A DNA stretch of 64,000 nt, taken from Acidimicrobiia bacterium (GTDB lineage Bacteria; Actinomycetota; Acidimicrobiia; Spongiisociales; UBA11373). Position 1 is the first letter of the stretch. The number at the start of each line of letters is the position of its first letter. Location of the stretch: positions 62,001-126,000 of the forward strand of contig JBBDMM010000001.1 of NCBI GenBank assembly GCA_040878325.1, written 5' to 3'. The position numbers were made by a program, and so were the translations under genes. This document shows, one piece after another, positions 7,045 to 17,617 of this stretch. The notes below the pieces were generated by a model. The model did not search any database and was not told the origin of the DNA. It saw nothing but the letters and a program-made list of their open reading frames with translations.

Positions 7045-8067
7045 TCAAATCAGCCTCTGCTGCGCCGGATCGGGCATTGGGGCACCGAGGTGCTCGTAGG
7101 CGAGGCGGGTCGCCACTCGTCCCCGGGCGGTCCGCTGCAGGAAGCCCATTTGAAGCAGGAATGGCTCGTATGCGTCCTCGACCGTCTGCGGCTCCTCCGA
7201 CACCGCGATCGCCAGCGTGGAAAGGCCCACCGGCCCGCCGTCGAACTTGTGGATCACGGCTTCGAGGATCGCTCGATCGACCCGGTCGAGCCCCGCTGCA
7301 TCCACTTCGAATACTGCAAGGGCCTGATGAGCCGTCTCCTCGTCGGCGGTACCCGCCGCCCTCACATCGGCGAAGTCCCGTACGCGTCGTAGCAGCCGGT
7401 TGGCGATTCGCGGAGTCCCCCGGGACCGCGTGCCGATGGCGCGGCGGGCAGCAGCGCTGATGTCGATGTCCATGAGCCGGGAAGACCGGGCGACGATCGA
7501 CTCCAGTTCCTCGGGCCGGTAGTAGTCGATACGGGCGACGTATCCGAAGCGATCGCGCAGCGGAGGTGACACCCGGCCCACCCGGGTGGTGGCACCCACC
7601 AGGGTGAAGGGCGGCAATTCGAGCCGAATCGAACGGGCGCCGGCTCCCTTGCCGACGACGATGTCGAGTTGGAAGTCTTCCATCGCTGTGTAAAGGATCT
7701 CCTCCACTGCCCGCGGCAAGCGATGGATCTCGTCGATGAACATGACGTCGCCCGATTCGATGTTGGAGAGAATGGCGGCGAGGTCTCCCGCTCGCTCCAA
7801 CGCCGGACCGGAAGTGGCACGGAACCGCGCGCCGATCTCCGAGGCAACGATCGCCGCGAGCGTGGTCTTGCCGAGCCCCGGAGGACCGCTGAAGAGAATG
7901 TGGTCGAGGGTCTCCCCTCTCCCCCGCGCGGCCTCCACCAGGATCGAGAGCCTCTCCTTCAGGTCGTCCTGACCGATGAACTCGTCGAGCGTCGAGGGCC
8001 GCAGACCCTCCTCGAACGCGGCGTCCTCCGGGGACGGCCGGGCGGCGAGGAGGCCCTCCTCCCTCAT
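7045..8067 (-). CDS. ruvB: Holliday junction branch migration helicase RuvB
   Basis: Hexameric AAA+ motor that drives branch migration of Holliday junctions with RuvA. The protein is 340 residues. Walker [10 protein letters not shown] lies at 61-69, Walker B IDEIH at 111-115, sensor 1 LVGATTR follows, and the RuvB signature [13 protein letters not shown] and the C-terminal winged-helix domain are present. Overlaps ruvA by 4 nt in a ruvC-ruvA-ruvB operon. The stop codon (7045-7047) lies 2 nt beyond the CTGGAGA repeat block. Confidence 0.98.
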
Positions 8068-8636
8068 GCGCGCCCCAGCCTCTGCAGAGCAGCGCGCAGC
8101 AGTGCCTCCGGACCCTGAGTGGGGTCGAGGCCGTCGAGCGCCTCACGGATCTCGCCGGATGCATAGCCGAGCCCTTCGAGGGCACCGCGCACCTCGGTGA
8201 CGCTGCCGGCCACCGCTCCGAGTTCTCCCTCGGGCATGGTGAGACGGGCGCGTAGGTCGAGGATCAACTTCTGGGCGCTGCGCTTGCCGATACCCGGCAC
8301 CGCGGTGAGCGTGTCGACATCCTCGGCGGCCAGGGCGCCCCGCAACTGCGACGGCGTCAGGGTCGCCAGCATCGCCAGACCGAGTTTCGGCCCGACCCCA
8401 CTGGCGCCGATCAGGTCGCGGAACAGATCACGACCCTCCATTGTCGAGAATCCGTACAGCGCCATGGCGTCCTCGCGCACATGGAGGTGGATATGAACGA
8501 CCACCTCCTCCCCCACCGCCGGCAACTCGCCAATGTCTCGCGGTGGCATCGCCACCTCGTAACCCACCCCGCCCACGTCGACGAGCAGACCGGTCGCGGT
8601 GCGACCCGCCAGCACACCCCGGAGCCGCCCGATCAT
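8064..8636 (-). CDS. ruvA: Holliday junction DNA helicase subunit RuvA
   Basis: Tetrameric protein that holds the four-way junction and loads RuvB. The protein is 190 residues, with an N-terminal OB-fold ([28 protein letters not shown]), two helix-hairpin-helix motifs ([11 protein letters not shown] and [17 protein letters not shown]) and a C-terminal three-helix RuvB-binding domain after a flexible linker. Overlaps both neighbours by 4 nt (ruvC stop and ruvB start). Confidence 0.97.
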
Positions 8637-9133
8637 CGCGGGGCACCTTCAACTGCCCGGCGGAGGGTGGCAGATTGCAGATGGCACAGCGCAACTGCGA
8701 GCGCGTCGGCGGCATCCGCCGGTGATGGTGCTCCGGCGAGCCCCAGACGCCGCGCCACCATCACCTGTACCTGGTCCTTGGTGGCATCGCCGTAGCCGGC
8801 GACGGCCATCTTCACCGCCGACGGGGTGTATTCGAACACGGCCAGGCCCGCCCGCGCGGCGGCGAGCATCGCCACGCCCGATGCCCTCGCCACCGATGTG
8901 GCTGTCTGCAGATTGCGGTTGACGAAGACTTCTTCGATGGCAACCTCCTCGGGAGCGAACTGGGCAACCACCCCCTCGAGGTCGTCGTAGAGCTCGCGGA
9001 GCCGGGAGGCAATGGTGTCACCGGGAGCCGTGGAGATCACCCCGGCGGCGACGGCGCGGATCGTGGTGCCGCTTGCCTCGACCACGCCGTATCCGGTACG
9101 CGAGAGCCCAGGATCGATGCCGAGAACGAACAT
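8633..9133 (-). CDS. ruvC: Crossover junction endodeoxyribonuclease RuvC
   Basis: Homodimeric resolvase that cuts Holliday junctions symmetrically. The protein is 166 residues with the RNase H-like fold. The catalytic acidic residues are visible as D7 in VLGIDPGLSRTGYG, the Glu pair in AIEEVFVNRN near 67-68, and the Asp residues in SPADAADALAVALCH near the C-terminus. TAACCT lies 9 nt before the ATG and may be a -10 element. Separated from yebC by a GC-rich hexamer repeat region. Confidence 0.96.
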   Translation of the reverse strand: MFVLGIDPGLSRTGYGVVEASGTTIRAVAAGVISTAPGDTIASRLRELYDDLEGVVAQFAPEEVAIEEVFVNRNLQTATSVARASGVAMLAAARAGLAVFEYTPSAVKMAVAGYGDATKDQVQVMVARRLGLAGAPSPADAADALAVALCHLQSATLRRAVEGAPR

Positions 9134-9185
9134 ATGTACGGGAGGTTAGAGGGTGTCGGTGACAGTTTCAGTGATTGAGCCCGCT

Positions 9186-9272
9186 CCAGCCAAGGCCCCA
9201 GCCCCCGCCCCACCCGTCCGGATTCCTTCTGGCCGTGGCCGGGGCTGGAGCCGGGGCTGGCGGTGGTGGCCG
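9186..9272. repeat. Paired hexamer arrays in inverted orientation (yebC-ruvC gap)
   Basis: The left arm reads CCAGCC, AAGGCC, CCAGCC, CCCGCC, CCACCC (9186-9215). The right arm reads GGCCGT, GGCCGG, GGCTGG, AGCCGG, GGCTGG, CGGTGG (9231-9266). The arms are roughly complementary, so the transcript could fold into a long imperfect stem around the spacer. It begins right after the yebC stop in the minus direction and may act as a terminator or mRNA stabiliser; that role is inference. Confidence 0.65.
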
Positions 9273-9275
9273 GCG

Positions 9276-10016
9276 CTAGCCGGCTACCGCCGCCAGTACT
9301 TCGTCTGAAATGTCGAAGTTGGCGTAGACGGTCTGCACGTCGTCGAGGTCTTCGAGGGCGTCGACCAGGCGAAGAACAGACCGCGCGGTCTCTTCGCCGA
9401 GCGCGACGGTGGTCGTCGGAATCTGGGTGACCTCCGATGCCTCGACGGTGAGGCCGGCATCCTCCAGGGCCTGGCGAACCGCCCTGAAGTCTGCTGGGGT
9501 GGTGATCACCTCGAACTGATCGCCCGACGGCCTCACGTCCTCGGCTCCCGCATCGAGCGCGGCGAGCATCACGTCGTCCTCCGGGCCTGAGGCGAGGATG
9601 TAGCCCCGCTGCTCGAACAGGTAGCCGACCGATCCCGGCTCACCCAGGCTGCCGCCATTCCGGCTGAACGTCGACCGCACGTCCGATGCGGCCCGGTTCC
9701 GGTTGTCGGTCAGCACCAGCACGTAGAGCGCCACTCCGCCGGGGGCGTAACCTTCGTACCAGATCTCGTCGTAATGGGCCCCTTCGGTATCGCCGATTCC
9801 GCGCTTGATCGCCCGGTCGATGTTGTCGTTGGGCACCGAAGCACTCTTCGCCTTGTCGATCGCCTGGGCGAGCGAAGCATTGGCGGCAGGATCACCGCCA
9901 CCGGCGCGGGCTGCTACCTCGACGGCCCTCGCCAGCTTGGCGAACACCTTGCCGCGCTGAACGTCCTTGGCCCCCTTCTTGTACTTGATGGTGGACCATT
10001 TCGAGTGCCCCGACAT
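9276..10016 (-). CDS. yebC: YebC/PmpR family DNA-binding regulatory protein
   Basis: Member of the YebC/TACO1 family, which acts as transcriptional regulator or as a ribosome-associated factor that eases translation of hard sequences. The 246-residue protein starts with the invariant SGHSKWSTIKYKKGAKDVQRGKVF block and carries GGDPAANASLAQAIDKAK, IDRAIKRG and the EGYAPGGVALYV segment, so it is a full-length family member. The gene directly abuts pdxT (its ATG ends 1 nt before the pdxT stop) and precedes ruvC, the usual actinobacterial order. Confidence 0.95.
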   Translation of the reverse strand: MSGHSKWSTIKYKKGAKDVQRGKVFAKLARAVEVAARAGGGDPAANASLAQAIDKAKSASVPNDNIDRAIKRGIGDTEGAHYDEIWYEGYAPGGVALYVLVLTDNRNRAASDVRSTFSRNGGSLGEPGSVGYLFEQRGYILASGPEDDVMLAALDAGAEDVRPSGDQFEVITTPADFRAVRQALEDAGLTVEASEVTQIPTTTVALGEETARSVLRLVDALEDLDDVQTVYANFDISDEVLAAVAG

Positions 10017-10598
10017 CTAGCCCTCCTCGGCCATCTGCAACAACAACGCATGTATCCGGGTGTCGCCCGTCAGCTCGGGATGGAACGACGTCGCGATGAC
10101 ATTCCCTTCGCGGACCATCACCGGGTGGCCATCGACCTCGGCGAGCACCTCCACCCGTTGACCCACCTTTTCGATCCACGGCGCTCGGATGAATACGGCG
10201 TGCACCGGTTCGCCAATGCCCTCGACCGGCAGCTCCGCCTCGAATGACTCGGTCTGGCGTCCGAACGCATTGCGTTGCACGACGACGTCGAGGACCCCGA
10301 GTTGAACCTGAGGCCGATCTTCGGTGGTGGACCCCGAGAGAAAGATCATCCCGGCACAGGTACCAAACGTGGCTAGGCCCCCTTCGATCGCGGCGCGCAG
10401 CGGCTCGACCATCCCGTAGCGGTCCGCCAGCTTGCCGATCGTCGTCGATTCCCCACCCGGGATCACGAGGGCGTCGAGACCATCGAGGTCGTGGGGCAGG
10501 CGGACCTCGGTGACCTCGGCTCCGAGCCGAACAAGGATCTCGGTGTGCTCCCGCACGTCACCCTGTAAGGCCAACACCCCGACGCGCACCGACGTCAC
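10017..10598 (-). CDS. pdxT: Pyridoxal 5'-phosphate synthase glutaminase subunit PdxT
   Basis: Class I glutamine amidotransferase that feeds ammonia to PdxS for PLP synthesis. The 193-residue protein shows the [13 protein letters not shown] oxyanion segment (about 48-60), the nucleophilic Cys in [12 protein letters not shown], and the His-Glu pair in [15 protein letters not shown] near the C-terminus. Overlaps the pdxS stop by 4 nt, as expected for the tightly coupled complex. Confidence 0.97.
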
Positions 10599-11476
10599 CA
10601 GCCCCGATTTTGCAGCAGGTCCTCGTCGGCGAGCCGGTCGATCTCGATGCCAGGCATCGCCTCGCCGAGCCCGCGTGACACCTTGGCGAGGATCTGCGGG
10701 TCCTGGTAGTAGGTCGTCGCCTCGACGATGGCGCGGGCTCGGGCCGCGGGATCAGCGCTCTTGAAGATTCCCGATCCGACAAAGACGCCGTCGCAGCCGA
10801 GCTGCATCATCAGGGCGGCGTCGGCAGGTGTGGCCAAGCCTCCAGCCGCAAAGTTGACCACTGGCAACCGCCCGGCCTCGGCCACCTCCTGGACCAGCTC
10901 GAACGGTGCCCCCAGGTCGCGGGCCGCACTCATCAGCTGCTCGCTGTCGAGCGACTGCAGCCGCCGAATGCCATCGGTGACGGTCCGCATGTGGCGGACC
11001 GCCTCGACCACATTGCCGGTACCAGCCTCGCCCTTCGTCCGGATCATCGCCGCGCCTTCACCGATGCGCCGCAGGGCTTCCCCCAGATCGCGGCAGCCGC
11101 ATACGAACGGCACGGTGAACTTCCACTTGTCGATGTGATACGCCTCGTCGGCCGGCGTCAAGACTTCCGACTCGTCGATGAAGTCGACGCCGAGAGCCTG
11201 AATTATCTGCGCCTCTACGAAGTGGCCGATCCTCACCTTGGCCATGACGGGAATCGAGACTGCGGCGATTATCTCCTCTACCTTGGTCGGGTCGGCCATC
11301 CGGGCCACACCGCCATCCCGGCGAATATCGGAGGGGACTCGCTCCAGCGCCATAACCGAAACGGCGCCCGCCTCCTCGGCGATCTTGGCCTGCTCGGCGT
11401 TGGTGACATCCATGATCACTCCGCCTTTGAGCATGTCGGCCAGGCCCCGCTTGACGCGATCGGTGCCCTTGTCCAT
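10595..11476 (-). CDS. pdxS: Pyridoxal 5'-phosphate synthase subunit PdxS
   Basis: Builds PLP from ribose 5-phosphate, glyceraldehyde 3-phosphate and ammonia in a 12-subunit ring with PdxT. I chose the ATG at 11476 (293 residues, the family norm) because AAGGAG lies 6 nt upstream; a GTG 21 nt further out is less likely. Visible motifs are [23 protein letters not shown] at the start, the catalytic-lysine segment [11 protein letters not shown], and [23 protein letters not shown] at 11506-11501 gives a promoter with a short leader. Confidence 0.97.
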
Positions 11477-11500
11477 GGTTGCTCCTTGGTCCTTCACTCG

Positions 11501-11506
11501 ATTGTA
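11501..11506 (-). promoter_or_regulatory. -10 element of the pdxS operon
   Basis: TACAAT on the minus strand (11506-11501) lies about 24 nt before the pdxS ATG. That leaves room for a short 5' leader holding the AAGGAG ribosome binding site. No clear -35 was picked out. Confidence 0.5.
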
Positions 11507-11552
11507 CCGGCAGGTCCCCCGGGCAACACCGGGCGGTGACCCAGGGCGGACC

Positions 11553-11643
11553 GGGGGCGAGCGAATAGGTCGCTGGCTCGATCAGCTTTCGGCTTGTGGC
11601 AAGCCGAAACCTGGTCCCGGGGCGAGCCTATTCGCTCACCCCC
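11553..11643. repeat. Nested palindrome between pdxS and pimA
   Basis: An outer 11-bp perfect inverted repeat, GAGCGAATAGG (11559-11569) and CCTATTCGCTC (11627-11637), extends beyond one mismatch by five G-C pairs. Inside it lies a second perfect 10-bp hairpin, TTTCGGCTTG (11587-11596) and CAAGCCGAAA (11600-11609), with a 3-nt loop. The pimA stop codon (11628-11630) sits in the outer arm. It could be the pimA-operon terminator, but no U-tract follows. Confidence 0.7.
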
Positions 11644-12683
11644 GACGAGGCCCCGATCGCGTCACGATATGCGGCCAGGTAGGCGCTCCGCACCACTTCC
11701 GGGCCGAAAAGCCGCGCCCGCTCGAGTCCCCGCTGGACCAGGGCGGCCCTCCGCGCGTCGTCGCCGAGAAGGCGCCCCACCTTCTCGACCAGGGCAGGCG
11801 GCTCACCCGCCGGGGCATACTCGGCGGCATCGCCGGCTACGGCGCGAAACGCCGGGAGATCGCTCGCCACCACCGCGCAACCGGCGGCGAGCCCTTCTAA
11901 CACCACCAAGCCGAAACTCTCTCCGCCCAGGTTCGGGGCGACAAGGACCGCGGCATCGCGCAACTCTGAAATCTTCGCCGGACCGCTCAGCCGACCGAGG
12001 AACTGCACTCCGTCCGGCCCCTGCGACCGCAGCGTGCCGATGACCCGCAGGACCGCCTCCGGCGCCATCCGCCGGACTAGCGGCCAAGCCTGAAGCAGCA
12101 CGTCGAGGCCCTTGCGCGCCTCGTCCCGGCCGAGGAACACCACTCGACCAGCAACCGGCGCGGCGGTCGGTCGATAGTCGTCGATGTCGATGCCGTTCGG
12201 GACGATCCGAATACCCGGGAGTCGGTCGATTGCCAAGGCCGCCACCGGGCTGACGGCAGTGACCACCCGCAGGCGCCTGGCGGCCAGGTCGAGGAGGGGG
12301 CCGCCTGCCCGGTATGCCATCCGCACGGCCCTGCTGGGGTCGGCATGGAATGTGCCCACCTTCGGCGGGGTGGCAGCGAACAGCGCACCAACGGAGACCA
12401 TGGGCATGAGCGGTTCGTGGATGTGGACGACATCGGCATCCCCTACCGCCTCACCCACGCGCTTGATGGCTCGGGGATCGACCGACACCGGGGCGCGCGA
12501 CCGGTTCACCGACAGCGACTTGAAGGAACCGACCGACCGGGTTCCCTCCGGCCCTCCGCTGCCTGGCGCCACCGCCCACGCCGTGTGGCCGGCATCGTTC
12601 AGCCATCTCACGATACGCGTCACCTGGTCCTGCACCCCGCCGGGAGCGTCGAACGCGTAGGGGCAAACGACGGCGATCCTCAT
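11628..12683 (-). CDS. pimA: GT4 glycosyltransferase, PimA-like phosphatidylinositol mannosyltransferase
   Basis: Likely transfers mannose from GDP-mannose to phosphatidylinositol at the inner membrane surface, the first step of PIM synthesis. The protein is 351 residues. The N-terminal MRIAVVCPYAFDAPGGVQ loop, VVHIHEPLMPM, FHADPSR, VPNGIDIDDY, the GRDEARKGLDVLL motif and the C-terminal GESFGLVVLEGLAAG nucleotide-sugar motif are all typical of PimA-type GT4 enzymes. The ATG at 12683 overlaps the upstream acyltransferase stop by 4 nt. Clustering with pgsA and an acyltransferase supports the PIM role over other GT4 functions. Confidence 0.85.
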   Translation of the reverse strand: MRIAVVCPYAFDAPGGVQDQVTRIVRWLNDAGHTAWAVAPGSGGPEGTRSVGSFKSLSVNRSRAPVSVDPRAIKRVGEAVGDADVVHIHEPLMPMVSVGALFAATPPKVGTFHADPSRAVRMAYRAGGPLLDLAARRLRVVTAVSPVAALAIDRLPGIRIVPNGIDIDDYRPTAAPVAGRVVFLGRDEARKGLDVLLQAWPLVRRMAPEAVLRVIGTLRSQGPDGVQFLGRLSGPAKISELRDAAVLVAPNLGGESFGLVVLEGLAAGCAVVASDLPAFRAVAGDAAEYAPAGEPPALVEKVGRLLGDDARRAALVQRGLERARLFGPEVVRSAYLAAYRDAIGASSGVSE

Positions 12684-13564
12684 CCCGTCACCCGGTCGCT
12701 GGGCCAGTTGGGCACGATCAGGTGCCACTGGGCAGGCGCTTTGCGAATGATGTCTTCGACCACTCCAGCCAGCAGGGCAACCCCGGCGGCGATTCGGGCA
12801 TCCTGGTCGGGCAGTTGGGGTAGCTCGATGGGTTCGCCCACCTCGATGGCATGGCCGGCGCCATCGGCGAAGTAGGTGCCGGCAGGAAGCAGCACCGCCC
12901 CGGTGCGGTCGGCGAGCGCGACCGGCCCCGCCGGAAGGGTGGTGGTCTCGCCGAAGAACTCGACCGGCACACCGGTCCCCGTGATGTCACGATCGCACAG
13001 GAGTGCGACCACTCCCCCGGCGCGCAGGCGCTGGAGTAGTTCCTTGCTGACCTGCGCGCCTTTTCGGGCGATGACCACGTCGATCGACATCATGCGTCGC
13101 ATCTCGATGAACCACTCGACGATCCGCTCATTGCCGAGTTCCTCGGCGACCGCCAGCACCCGGAGGTCCTCCTCGGCAGCGCGCATGCCCGCCATCTCCC
13201 AGTTGCCCACGTGAGGCAACGCCACCACCACCCCGCGCCCGGTCGCCACTGCGGCGCGGAGACGCTCGACCCCGTGGAACTCGGTCCTCGCCAGCGCGGC
13301 GGCGCGCCGCCGGGGCCGCATCCAGAAGGTCTCGGCCCAGTACCGGCCGTAATACCCGAAGACCTTGCGCGCCGACCGTTGCGCCTCGGCGCCGTCACCG
13401 AGCACCCGCGATTGGTGACGGACTGCCATCGCGAAGCGGTCACGTGCGATGAACGAAGCCACCCAACCGGCGGCGTGGCCCAGCCGACGCATCGCAGGCT
13501 CGGGCAGCAGGCCGAACAGTCCGGAGAGCACCCGGTAAAGGAGGTAGCCCAGATTCCGCTTCAC
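12680..13564 (-). CDS. Lysophospholipid-type acyltransferase (PatA-like, PIM acyltransferase)
   Basis: HtrB/LpxL-superfamily acyltransferase, here most likely the PatA-type enzyme that acylates phosphatidylinositol mannosides on the cytoplasmic face. The GTG at 13564 overlaps the pgsA stop (GTGA) and gives 294 residues. The N-terminus has a membrane-anchoring stretch (GYLLYRVLSGLFGLLP). The catalytic His motif reads ALPHVGNWEMAG, with the acidic residue at the fourth position after His as E. VVALLCDRDITGTGVPVEFFGE follows. Substrate assignment rests on the neighbours pgsA and pimA. Confidence 0.83.
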   Translation of the reverse strand: MKRNLGYLLYRVLSGLFGLLPEPAMRRLGHAAGWVASFIARDRFAMAVRHQSRVLGDGAEAQRSARKVFGYYGRYWAETFWMRPRRRAAALARTEFHGVERLRAAVATGRGVVVALPHVGNWEMAGMRAAEEDLRVLAVAEELGNERIVEWFIEMRRMMSIDVVIARKGAQVSKELLQRLRAGGVVALLCDRDITGTGVPVEFFGETTTLPAGPVALADRTGAVLLPAGTYFADGAGHAIEVGEPIELPQLPDQDARIAAGVALLAGVVEDIIRKAPAQWHLIVPNWPSDRVTG

Positions 13565-14154
13565 TCTTGCAGTTGGGCCCAGGTGCGATGGAAGCGCTGC
13601 AGGACCGTGAGCCATGACAGGATCGCCAGAATCCAGATGGTTGCCGGAAGGGTGGCGAGGCCGACACCGTGGAGACCGACGCCGATCCCGAAGACGAGCA
13701 GGCGTTCGGCTCGGCCCATCAGGCCGCCCTTCCCATCGAGCCCGGCGCCCTCAGCCTTCGCCCGGAGGTAGGGGATGAGCAACGAGCCGCACACGGCGAG
13801 CAGTGACAAGAGGACCAGAGTCGCCTCAGCGCGGCGTCCGAGGTAGAAGGCCAGCCCGGTCCAGGCGGCGACCTCACCGAGACGATCGGTGAACGAATCG
13901 AGCAGGGCACCTCGCGCCGTTTCCTGGTTCGTCAGGCGGGCGAGTACCCCGTCGAGGATGTCGAGCACAGCCCCGAACCCGAGGACGGCGGCTCCGACCG
14001 CCAGGTATCCCATGGCGATCAGCACCGCCCCACCGACCGAGATCGTGAAACCGGCGACGGTGATCATGGTCGGGGTCAACCCCAGCCGGGCGAGGAGGCG
14101 GGCGAACGGATCGGCGACACGCGAAACCTGTTTGCGGGCTCTGATGTCCAGCAT
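13561..14154 (-). CDS. pgsA: CDP-alcohol phosphatidyltransferase (phosphatidylinositol-phosphate synthase type)
   Basis: Integral membrane enzyme that condenses CDP-diacylglycerol with an alcohol phosphate, probably inositol phosphate given the PIM cluster. The protein is 197 residues with about six helices. The full CDP-OH signature is visible as DILDGVLARLTNQETARGALLDSFTDR, with the four conserved Asp residues. TAGGTT lies 6 nt before the ATG, so this gene heads the cluster with a leaderless transcript. Whether the product is PI-phosphate or PG-phosphate cannot be read from the motif alone. Confidence 0.87.
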   Translation of the reverse strand: MLDIRARKQVSRVADPFARLLARLGLTPTMITVAGFTISVGGAVLIAMGYLAVGAAVLGFGAVLDILDGVLARLTNQETARGALLDSFTDRLGEVAAWTGLAFYLGRRAEATLVLLSLLAVCGSLLIPYLRAKAEGAGLDGKGGLMGRAERLLVFGIGVGLHGVGLATLPATIWILAILSWLTVLQRFHRTWAQLQE

Positions 14155-14166
14155 GGGGGGAACCTA
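14155..14166 (-). promoter_or_regulatory. Leaderless -10 element for pgsA
   Basis: TAGGTT on the minus strand (14166-14161), then six C residues, then ATG. No ribosome binding site is present, which fits a leaderless transcript. Confidence 0.6.
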
Positions 14167-14236
14167 GCAGTGCGGCTACTCCGGCCGACCTTACCCGATC
14201 CGGTCTTTCGGCCCAGAGCGACCCATGACCCGTTAG

Positions 14237-14242
14237 TACACT
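14237..14242 (+). promoter_or_regulatory. -10 element for the EF-G-like gene
   Basis: TACACT lies 38 nt before the ATG at 14281 in the divergent pgsA/EF-G-like intergenic region. A leader with a GGGAGG ribosome binding site follows. The -35 is not obvious. Confidence 0.45.
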
Positions 14243-14280
14243 CCGGCCGCACTCGATCTCCGGAAACCTCGGGAGGCTGG

Positions 14281-16323
14281 ATGGCTTCGGACAAGATCCG
14301 CAACGTCGCCCTCGTTGGCCACAGCGGCAGTGGAAAGACGATGCTCGCGGAGGCACTGCTCTTCACCGCCGGGGTGACCACCCGCATGGGCCGGGTCGAG
14401 GACCGGAACACGGTCACCGACTTCGACGCCGAGGAGGTGGCTCGCGGTTCCTCGGTCAGCCTGGCGATGGCGCCATTCGAGTGGTCCGGTCACCGGATCA
14501 ACCTCATCGACACGCCGGGGCTGTCCGATTTCATGGGCGAGGCCCTGACCGCCCTCCGGGCAGCCGACCTCGCCCTGTTCGTCGTGTCGGGCGTCGACGG
14601 CGTCGAGGTACAGACCGAAGCGCTGTGGAACATGGCCGGGGAGGAAGGCATCGCGCGGGCGGTCTTCGTCAACAAGCTCGACCGCGAAAGGGCTTCGTTT
14701 TCCCGCACCCTCACCCAACTCAAAGAAGTGTTCGGCACAGGGATCGCTCCGCTCCAGATTCCAATCGGCGCCGAGGCCGATCTCCGCGGGGTCGCCAACC
14801 TCGTTGGAGGTCGCGCCTTCACCTACTCGGCAGGAAACAAGGCTACGGAAGGCGACGTCCCTGAGGAGATCCATGCCGAGGTAGCCGCACTGCACACGGC
14901 GCTGGTTGAAGCAGTGGTGGAAACCGACGACGCGATGCTCGAAAAGTACCTCGACTCGGGCGAGGAGCCCACCGGACCGCAACTCATCGCGGGAATGCAC
15001 CGCGGGATGGTCGAGCGGACCGCATTCCCGGTCCTCTGCGGCTCGGCCACCGGACTCATCGGGATCGACCGGCTGGCGCAATTCCTCATCGACTACGGCC
15101 CGAGGCCCTCGGAGCGGCCGGCGCCGCCTTTGGCCGAAGGTGAAAGCCTCGACGGTTCCGGGGTCGTCGCCTACGTCTTCAAGACCATGTCCGACCAATA
15201 CGTCGGCCGGATTTCGATGTTCCGGGTGTTCCGGGGCGAGATCAACCTAGATGCCGATCTGCAGAACCCCAATCGGGGCGTCGCCGGCCGGATGCACAAC
15301 ATCTTTACGATGCGCGGCAAGGAGCACGCGGAGACCAAGCGCGTCGAAGAAGGCGATATCGCCGCAGTCGCGAAGCTCGAGGCGACGCTCGCCGGTGACA
15401 CCCTCCGTTCGCCAGGTTCGAAAGTCGTCATCGATCCGGTTCGGTTTCCCCGCCCGACGATGTCCCTCGCGGTCTTTCCCCGCTCGCAGCACGATGAGGA
15501 GAAACTGTCCACTGCATTGCACCGCGCGGTCGAAGACGATCCGACCCTGCGGTCCGAGCGCAATGTCGAAACCCATCAGACAGTGCTGTCTGGCCTCGGC
15601 GATGCCCACCTCGAAGTGGCCATCGCCCGGCTCCACTCCCGCTTCGGGGTCGACATCGACACCGCCCTCCCGAAGATCGCGTACCGCGAGACGATCCGGG
15701 GGACGGCCGAAGTCGAAGGCAAGCACAAGAAGCAGTCAGGAGGGCGGGGCCAATATGGAGTCGCCAACCTTCGCTTCGAGCCCCTGCGAGCCGACTCGGT
15801 GTTCGAGTTCGCCAACGAGATCAAAGGCGGTTCGATCCCGAAGCAATACGTCCCGGCCGTCGAAAAGGGGGTGGTCGAAGCTCTGCAGCGCGGGATCCTC
15901 GCCGGGTTCCCGGTGGTCGGAGTGAAGGCCACGGTCTTCGACGGCAAGTACCACCCGGTCGATTCCGATGAATTGTCCTTCCGGATGGCCGGTATCCTGG
16001 CGGTGCGCGAAGCGGCACCCAAGCTCAACGCCACGCTGCTGGAGCCGATCATGAGAGCAACCGTGCGGGTCCCCGAGGACCTGATGGGCGAGGTGATCGG
16101 CGACCTGAACGCCAAACGGGGCCGGGTGCTGGGGATGGATTCGGAAGGCGGGACAAGGGTGCTGACGGCCGAGGTCCCCCTCGCCGAGATGCAGAGGTAT
16201 TCGATCGACCTCCGTTCCATCACGAGCGGCCGGGGTTCGTTCGAGATGGAGTTTGCCCGGTATGAAGAGGCTCCACCGAACGAGGCTCAGCGAGTCATCG
16301 CAGCCACTCGTGACGAGGACTGA
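14281..16323 (+). CDS. Elongation factor G-like GTPase (FusA2-type)
   Basis: Translational GTPase of the EF-G2/FusA2 group; the exact role of this group is not well settled. The protein is 680 residues. The G1 motif is GHSGSGKT, G3 DTPG in NLIDTPGLSDF, and G4 NKLD. The GTPase domain is followed by domain II, III, a domain IV containing KHKKQSGGRGQYG, and a C-terminal EF-G domain V (LEPIMRATVRVPEDLMGEVIGDLNAKRGRVLGM). The G1 motif GHSGSGKT differs from the AHIDAGKT of canonical EF-G, and that difference is the basis for calling it EF-G-like. The ATG at 14281 is preceded by GGGAGG. It sits 16 nt before gltA on the same strand. Confidence 0.92.
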   Translation: MASDKIRNVALVGHSGSGKTMLAEALLFTAGVTTRMGRVEDRNTVTDFDAEEVARGSSVSLAMAPFEWSGHRINLIDTPGLSDFMGEALTALRAADLALFVVSGVDGVEVQTEALWNMAGEEGIARAVFVNKLDRERASFSRTLTQLKEVFGTGIAPLQIPIGAEADLRGVANLVGGRAFTYSAGNKATEGDVPEEIHAEVAALHTALVEAVVETDDAMLEKYLDSGEEPTGPQLIAGMHRGMVERTAFPVLCGSATGLIGIDRLAQFLIDYGPRPSERPAPPLAEGESLDGSGVVAYVFKTMSDQYVGRISMFRVFRGEINLDADLQNPNRGVAGRMHNIFTMRGKEHAETKRVEEGDIAAVAKLEATLAGDTLRSPGSKVVIDPVRFPRPTMSLAVFPRSQHDEEKLSTALHRAVEDDPTLRSERNVETHQTVLSGLGDAHLEVAIARLHSRFGVDIDTALPKIAYRETIRGTAEVEGKHKKQSGGRGQYGVANLRFEPLRADSVFEFANEIKGGSIPKQYVPAVEKGVVEALQRGILAGFPVVGVKATVFDGKYHPVDSDELSFRMAGILAVREAAPKLNATLLEPIMRATVRVPEDLMGEVIGDLNAKRGRVLGMDSEGGTRVLTAEVPLAEMQRYSIDLRSITSGRGSFEMEFARYEEAPPNEAQRVIAATRDED

Positions 16324-16339
16324 ACCCTGAAAGGGAACA

Positions 16340-17617
16340 ATGGCTGATCGCAAGGTCGTCCTGAAATACGACGGCGGGGAACTCGAATTCTCGATCGTCC
16401 CCGGAACCGAAGGGGGCGACGGATTCGACATCGGGAACCTCAGAGCCCAGACGGGCCTCGTCACGCTCGATTATGGGTTCGCCAACACCGCAGGGACGAT
16501 GAGTTCCGTCTCGTTCGTCGATGGGGCGGCCGGAGCGCTGCGGTACCGCGGCTACTCGATCGAGGATCTTGCCGAGAACTCGACGTTCCTCGAGGTGGCC
16601 TATCTCCTGTTCCACGGTGAGTTGCCCACCGACGCTGCGCTCGAGGCGTACGTCCACGACGTCACCCGCCACACGCTCCTCAACGAGGAGATGAAGCGGC
16701 TCTTCGATGCGTTCCCCAAGAGCGCCCACCCCATGGCGATTCTCGCCTCGGCCACCAACGCCATGGCCACCTTCTACCCCGATTTCCACAACCCCACCGA
16801 TCCCTACTCGGTAGAGCAGTCAGCGCTCCGGCTCGTCGCCAAACTCCCCACCGTGGCGGCGTTTGCCTACAAGAAGTCGATGGGACAGCCATACATCTAT
16901 CCGCGCAACGACCTCGACTACGTGTCGAACTTCCTCCACATGATGTTCGCCCTCCCGGTCGAGGAGTATCTGGCGAATCCGGTGGTGGCGAAGGCACTCG
17001 ACGTGCTGCTCATCCTCCACGCCGACCATGGCCAGAACTGCTCCACCTCGACCGTGAGGCTCGCCGGGTCGAGCCAGGCCAATCTCTTCACCTCGGTGGC
17101 GGCAGGGATGAGTGCTCTGTGGGGCCCGCTGCACGGCGGCGCCAATCAGCGGGTTGTCGAGATGCTCGAAGAGATCAACGAAGACGGACGCGACTTCAAG
17201 AAGTACATCAAAAAGGCGAAGGACCCCAACGACCCCTTCCGGCTGTGGGGCTTCGGGCACCGGGTCTACAAGAATTACGACCCGAGGGCGAAGATCCTCA
17301 AGGGCTTTGCATACGAGGTCATGGACCTGGTCGGCGGAGACGATCCGCTCCTCGACATCGCCGTCAAGCTCGAGGAAGCAGCGCTCGCCGACGACTACTT
17401 TGTGGAGCGTCGGCTCTATCCCAACGTCGACTTCTACTCCGGCCTGATGTTCCGGGCGCTCGGCTTCCCGGTGAGGATGTTCACTCCGCTGTTCGCCATT
17501 GGACGCCTCCCCGGATGGGTCGCCCAGTGGCGTGAGATGACCGGCGATCCCGAGACCAGGATCGGCCGCCCCCGCCAGATCTACACGGGTCACCCCGAGC
17601 GCAAACTCGAGAGGTAA
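16340..17617 (+). CDS. gltA: Citrate synthase
   Basis: Condenses oxaloacetate and acetyl-CoA to citrate at the entry of the TCA cycle. The 425-residue protein is the longer (type II-like) form with an N-terminal extension before domain 1. The active-site His regions LILHADHGQNCSTSTVR, LWGPLHGGANQRVVEML and GFGHRVYKNYDPRAKILK are all present, the catalytic Asp lies near the C-terminus (PNVDFYSG), and the usual arginines are visible. GAAAGGGAA lies just before the ATG. It follows the EF-G-like gene closely and is followed by a heptamer array. Confidence 0.97.
   Translation: MADRKVVLKYDGGELEFSIVPGTEGGDGFDIGNLRAQTGLVTLDYGFANTAGTMSSVSFVDGAAGALRYRGYSIEDLAENSTFLEVAYLLFHGELPTDAALEAYVHDVTRHTLLNEEMKRLFDAFPKSAHPMAILASATNAMATFYPDFHNPTDPYSVEQSALRLVAKLPTVAAFAYKKSMGQPYIYPRNDLDYVSNFLHMMFALPVEEYLANPVVAKALDVLLILHADHGQNCSTSTVRLAGSSQANLFTSVAAGMSALWGPLHGGANQRVVEMLEEINEDGRDFKKYIKKAKDPNDPFRLWGFGHRVYKNYDPRAKILKGFAYEVMDLVGGDDPLLDIAVKLEEAALADDYFVERRLYPNVDFYSGLMFRALGFPVRMFTPLFAIGRLPGWVAQWREMTGDPETRIGRPRQIYTGHPERKLER

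Follow-up and report, generated by a model that had tools for sequence, protein, structure and literature searches.

REP and REPIN palindromes, which go with RAYT transposases, are short, intergenic, and present in many copies. Insertion sequences (ISs) of the IS1031 group have ends that typically begin with GAG. ISLrh, a member of that group, is reported to have 17-bp ends, a preference for TNA targets, and 3-bp repeats exclusively (PMC12016507). IS-derived MITEs from bacteria, such as MITEAba12 (PMC6382973) and QMITE2 (PMC10969869), are short, intergenic, and multi-copy; they have terminal inverted repeats and target-site duplications, lack a transposase, and fold strongly. RNA hairpins that are maintained by template switching have been described in rRNA and microRNA genes (PMC8794818). 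Among the signs of template switching, PMC8794818 lists one-step compensatory changes and loop inversions; it calls its own evidence for the maintenance of short stems circumstantial.

Here we describe a 91-base nested palindrome at positions 11553–11643 of the window (the whole 64,000-nucleotide stretch of Acidimicrobiia DNA that we analyzed). It lies between a pimA-like gene and pdxS. We propose that it is a non-autonomous 91-bp MITE, most likely moved in trans by IS5-family (IS1031-type) transposases, and we hold this view with high confidence. IS-derived MITEs are a known, ordinary kind of element. Like the bacterial MITEs above, this one is short (91 bp), has no transposase gene, and is dispersed in many copies (at least 85 places). 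But the family is GC-rich, whereas MITEs have been described as typically AT-rich (PMC10969869), and it has a nested second hairpin, a conserved asymmetric loop, concerted changes in its arms, and an enrichment at stop codons. With the IS1031 subgroup (ISLrh, PMC12016507) it shares the TNA target, the 3-bp duplication, and 17-bp ends that start with GA or GG, but the MITE is a 91-bp element without a transposase, and only its ends are common to the IS5 elements of the class. Our literature search (titles and abstract openings, with few subscription papers) found no description of this MITE family or of template switching in MITEs. The features of the locus are as follows.

10595–11497, minus strand: pdxS.
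11553–11643, plus strand: the MITE copy, 91 bp, oriented so that CCCGGGGCGAG is on its right side.
11553–11569, plus strand: left 17-bp terminal inverted repeat, GGGGGCGAGCGAATAGG; the family's arms were matched to IS5 ends.
11570–11580, plus strand: left part of the asymmetric internal loop; bases 1–4 of this segment are paired with 11622–11625.
11581–11596, plus strand: left half of the inner stem.
11597–11599, plus strand: hairpin loop TGG; its reverse complement CCA is present in copies from genome G007.
11600–11615, plus strand: right half of the inner stem.
11616–11626, plus strand: right side of the internal loop, CCCGGGGCGAG; the copies compared show strong conservation here.
11627–11643, plus strand: right 17-bp terminal inverted repeat; the pimA-like gene's stop codon is within it.
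11628–11630, minus strand: TAG stop of the pimA-like gene, which comes from the element's arm along with the last four codons (GVSE).
11628–12728, minus strand: pimA-like glycosyltransferase gene; its NCBIfam matches are all below their cut-offs.

A first-pass annotation of the sequence had reported a perfect 10-bp hairpin inside an 11-bp plus 5-bp inverted repeat, with the pimA stop codon in the outer arm, and the coordinates bear this out. The perfect hairpin pairs 11587–11596 with 11600–11609 around the loop TGG. The outer inverted repeat pairs 11553–11557 with 11639–11643 and 11559–11569 with 11627–11637, so that 5 and 11 bp flank a single C/A mismatch within 17-bp arms; the stop codon is in the right arm. 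At 16 positions, the inner stem is longer than the hairpin first reported; in the window's copy, one of the positions is a C-C mismatch and one is a T.G pair. Between the inner and outer stems is an asymmetric internal loop. The fold is far stronger than expected by chance: as RNA, its MFE is −62.3 kcal/mol, as compared to a mean of −35.4 for shuffled sequences (z = −7.94), and as DNA its z score is −7.15, with none of 200 shuffles equaling the element in either case. (We use the name pimA because the neighboring gene resembles phosphatidylinositol mannoside acyltransferase; the gene's own NCBIfam matches are below cut-off. The neighbor, which is upstream, barely passed the NCBIfam model, with 209.8 bits against a cut-off of 209.)

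The suggestion that this might be a palindromic repeat element proved right: there are further copies both in its own genome, where a search for them gave at least 13 places, and in relatives. The longer matches to the window's copy within its own genome are 79–88% identical. (In one comparison, 10 of 11 own-genome copies were used and one with a deletion was left out.) Using a covariance model (R1) that we built from 13 chosen copies, we found at least 85 distinct places (E up to 0.001) in 7 of 14 genomes from the same bacterial family. Besides the window's genome, these are G007 (at least 29), G009 (at least 23), G006 (at least 7), G001 (at least 6), G005 (at least 5), and G021 (at least 2). 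The 85 is a lower bound, as 150 of about 1,600–2,150 candidates per genome were scored, and the weakest of the places (E near 0.001) are uncertain. With stricter filters (E up to 10−8), a sample of 395 genomes from the class gave matches in the same seven genomes and no others. For 71 of the 85 places, we read the element together with its flanks; those left out are 4 from G009, 3 from G006, 5 from G001, and 2 from G021. Among these 71 copies, the length is 91 nt in 41 and 90–93 nt in 67. An exact-pattern search with 23 bases of the element gave one genome-contig record, MELR01000006.1, from the metagenome-assembled genome Actinobacteria bacterium RBG_16_68_21, and no exact match in viral contigs. 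The window's copy had no match in plasmids (blastn, E up to 10−5).

G007 has several other arrangements of the element. Nine of the contig ends that we read in this genome fall within a copy, which is what one would expect of a repeat in a draft assembly. Two copies are adjacent, with a single TAA between them (C14, L070). Four identical copies of 26 bp have an internal deletion (C4:26237–26262, C14:71147–71172, C20:21170–21195, and C23:618–643); three of these have exact flanking repeats (TCA, TGA, and TCA) while the fourth is flanked by CTA and TTA. This deletion form may itself be mobile.

The flanks of the copies record how the family inserts. Of the 71 copies, 33 have identical 3-mers on both sides, and in 30 of these the 3-mer is TNA (12 TCA, 11 TGA, 5 TAA, and 2 TTA). 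In 10,000 shuffles, the mean was 7.4 and the maximum was 19. The full context CTNAG is found at 18 copies. The other 38 copies do not have identical flanking 3-mers, and these include the window's copy, which is flanked by ACC and GAC: although the family has target-site duplications, the flanks of this copy bear no record of its insertion. Five copies (L066, L067, L002, L091, and the window's) have no TNA but flanks of the GTC/GTA or TAC/GAC kind, such as ACC/GAC in the window and TTC/GAC at L091. Perhaps these five copies represent a second type of target.

Most copies are at the ends of genes. By a simple gene caller (its nine calls in 8000–16400 were much like the long reading frames), 37 copies are between co-directional genes, 18 are between convergent genes, 9 are between divergent genes, 2 are within a called gene, and 5 are undecided. 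Of the 64 copies whose context could be called, 41 have the 3′ end of a gene at −20 to +10 bases. Where a copy has both a TNA duplication and a called context, the duplication is at a gene's stop codon in 16 of 27 cases; as background, in non-coding sequence at the same loci, a stop is overlapped by 94 of the 709 TNA sites and by 19 of the 76 CTNAG sites. TNA covers TAA and TGA on either strand, so insertion into such a stop rebuilds it. We propose that the element would insert at TNA, often within CTNAG, with duplication of three bases, and that by rebuilding TAA or TGA stops it would become enriched at the 3′ ends of genes. A target that restores the stop it breaks would be a tidy route to harmless insertion. 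In the window, the element is at the end of the pimA-like gene, with the frame reading four codons into the arm and stopping at the arm's TAG.

We also considered that the palindrome might be a transcription terminator of a type that lacks a U-tract, given its strong GC-rich hairpin and its location directly 3′ of stop codons. The first-pass annotation had pointed out the missing U-tract and had doubted that this was a plain terminator. We agree on both counts: there is no intrinsic-terminator-like site in 11300–11900. Furthermore, pdxS, downstream, is co-directional in the window, and the family as a whole is most often between co-directional genes and is found between divergent genes as well (37 and 9 of 64), while mobility accounts for the placement after stop codons. 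A dedicated terminator therefore seems highly improbable to us, although the element may affect transcription as a side effect.

We compared pimA-pdxS junctions in relatives, which we located via pdxS. The junction was readable in 12 relatives. (G021 was not counted, as the stretch fetched from it held no pimA.) Eleven of the 12, including G001 from the same genus, do not have the element there. The twelfth, G009, has a different, decayed copy from the G009 subfamily in this spacer, 3′ of its stop codon (L170, G009:C63); the spacer's local alignment score is 100, as compared to 27–32 for the whole loci of the other 11 relatives. As the G009 copy is separate, the spacer was probably hit twice independently. 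The pimA-like frame in the window enters the arm and ends in GVSE-stop, which the element encodes, and the window's copy bears the C/A mismatch in the outer repeat and the C-C mismatch in the inner stem, like an older copy. Chance had been left as an option if the palindrome were both missing from close relatives and without another copy in the genome. The insertion is indeed missing from the same-genus relative, but the genome has other copies.

Two observations concern G001. Its spacer (L163) has no MITE, but about 25 bases (GATGAGGYGTGAGCCGAAGARCCAT) are imperfectly duplicated there, around short repeats of ATCTGAC. Also, a second match to pdxS in G001 (C228, L176) is 70% identical to the window's pdxS; it is perhaps a paralogue or contamination.

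What moves the element? The outer arms point to IS5-family transposases. The first matching IS that we identified is in G012, with ends GAGGCCGCGCGGATAGGG and GAGGGTCAGCGGATAGGG and with TAA and TTA as its flanks, which is not an exact repeat (L126). The G012 transposase, P0001, belongs to the IS5 family (140.9 bits for NCBIfam NF033580, with a cut-off of 110), and 26 of the 395 class genomes have relatives of it (E up to 10−40). Across 30 IS5 loci, an end matches a MITE arm at 17 of 17 bases in five (L137, L138, L141, L146, and L150), and L150 matches the arms exactly at both ends. Both ends are within 3 differences of the MITE arms in 16 of the 30 loci; in the other 14, one end or both ends had no match within 3 differences. 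As a control, we shuffled the left flanks (5 shuffles for each of 29 loci): none of the 145 shuffled flanks came closer than 2 differences, and 7 were at 3 or less. Automatic end-finding gave an exact TTA or TAA duplication at 7 of 23 IS loci (L156, L132, L137, L140, L141, L144, and L157), and unrelated inverted repeats for many others of the 23. These partner ISs thus combine an IS5 transposase with 3-bp TNA duplications, as expected for the IS1031 group, and the group's behavior as given in PMC12016507 is the same as what we see for the MITE family. The 17-bp arms would be the terminal inverted repeats that IS1031-type IS5 transposases recognize in trans. The MITE and the ISs have their ends alone in common, to the exclusion of the MITE's inner 57 bp. 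One further matching end, on contig C289 of G012, had no partner arm in the roughly 200 bases that we read.

We do not see a donor beside the MITE, because the carriers lack the transposase and the genomes with transposase matches lack the MITE. In the seven carrier genomes, there was no match for an IS5 transposase with PF01609, PF13340, or NF033580. Two genomes of the family (G010 and G012) do match PF01609, but neither has a match to the MITE, and G012 alone in the family exceeds the cut-off for NF033580. Most of the genomes are many-contig drafts, from which ISs easily drop out; presumably the donor was lost, was not assembled, or was only passing through.

Multi-copy palindromes that are mainly intergenic, as these are, could also be of the REP/REPIN type and be moved by a RAYT (Y1) transposase. 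However, a Y1_Tnp match was found in 0 of the 14 family genomes, as compared to 5 of 14 control genomes, and 3-bp TNA duplications and 17-bp IS5-like ends set this family apart from REP/REPIN elements. We see next to no chance that a RAYT moves this element.

The two stems of the element covary strongly. The sample for pairing statistics was the 41 copies with a length of exactly 91 nt (40 distinct rows). In these, both sides have changed in 27 of 37 pairs, and paired cells make up 91.2% of the total; for the 17-bp arms, which are the terminal inverted repeats, the figure is 95.1%. If the partners are slid by 1–3 columns, pairing falls to 24–43%. Both-side changes are found in 12 of the 16 pairs of the inner stem, though this is not a terminal repeat. 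We assigned 51 of the 71 copies to six subfamilies (17 fit none and 3 had more than 18 differences) and counted concerted changes: there are 50 cells with Watson-Crick double changes, and about 2 would be expected under independent substitutions (the sum of six Monte Carlo means; in the smallest subfamily, with 3 copies, the 1 observed equals the Monte Carlo maximum). Because the copies are related, cell counts are not independent; counts of private events guard against this in part, and they give 16 doubles and 23 singles in the inner stem and 11 doubles and 55 singles in the outer arms. We think that the paired changes are unlikely to be artefacts of assembly, as arms of 16–17 bp are shorter than the usual assembly words and the pattern is present in several assemblies.

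Covariation would usually suggest a functional RNA, and a regulatory RNA fold had been put forward for this locus. Such an RNA (a small RNA, an attenuator, or a stabilizer of mRNA 3′ ends) would owe its fold to selection and its spread to duplication. Besides the covariation, the near-constant length (67 of 71 copies at 90–93 nt), the conserved asymmetric internal loop, and the location of 41 of 64 copies at a gene's 3′ end fit this idea. But the stem mismatches do not show an excess of G.U pairs: there are 16 G.T and 14 A.C mismatches (in 33 of the 91-nt copies, with G009 excluded), or 6 and 8 on the strand of co-directional genes, although these numbers are small. Also, the copies show no significant bias in orientation with respect to co-directional genes (23 vs. 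14, p = 0.19). The element belongs to no Rfam 15 family (its sole match has 23.1 bits where the gathering threshold is 100, E = 0.85), and a scan of 8000–16000 against Rfam gave chance-level matches at most. Finally, at the one locus that we compared, the element is absent in 11 of 12 relatives, and the target-site duplications and IS5-like ends already explain the outer arms. So the covariation that the first-pass annotation had proposed to look for is there, and is strong, but taken with these results it does not support an RNA function, and we judge a functional RNA to be very unlikely. The element may have regulatory side effects.

Instead, the pattern of change suggests that the stems are corrected at the level of DNA. 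Paired private changes, inverted loops, and the lack of a G.U excess favor template switching in DNA over selection on an RNA. In G007, the two common hairpin loops, TGG and CCA, are reverse complements of each other, and the copies at C17:7445 and C28:206052 differ from the copy at C13:7534 in the loop only. Across the family, 32 of 71 copies have a partner with the reverse-complement loop in their own genome, as compared to 9.9 if the loops' letters are shuffled (p = 0.0025). In G009 (L098–L116), the six-base loops of two subfamilies are mutually reverse complementary (for instance, GATCGT and ACGATC). These are the same-step compensatory changes and inverted loops of the hairpins in PMC8794818, but those hairpins are in rRNA and microRNA genes, while ours are dispersed, similar copies of mobile DNA without a sign of selection on RNA.

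Alternatively, pairing of the arms might be kept by selection for transposition, either for matched ends or for a DNA hairpin that the transposase uses; this view is compatible with the element being a MITE. The outer arms are likely transposase sites, and they differ among subfamilies yet are matched within each. The stems also change somewhat less than the internal loop: the change per site is 0.056 in the inner stem and 0.048 in the outer arms, as compared to 0.080 for the internal loop; the hairpin loop is at 0.29. These rates imply that the stems are only moderately slowed, and in subfamily G007-A the stems and the internal loop are about equal (0.033, 0.039, and 0.040). However, double changes are relatively more common in the inner stem than in the outer arms (16 doubles to 23 singles vs. 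11 to 55), and inversions of the loop do not require any such selection. We regard selection for transposition as possible but rather doubtful. We consider template switching the most likely cause, at about even odds with its alternatives: selection on DNA for matching or folding, or both processes together.

There is roughly an even chance that template switching in bacterial DNA has left a natural record in this element, with covariation as a by-product of mutation in similar copies that are probably non-functional. A pipeline that relies on covariation could mistake this MITE family for a structured RNA, which bears on the limits of covariation alone as proof of RNA function. If template switching is the cause, then methods that discover RNAs by covariation would have a negative control in this family, which would also be a gauge of the rate at which palindromes are corrected in the wild.
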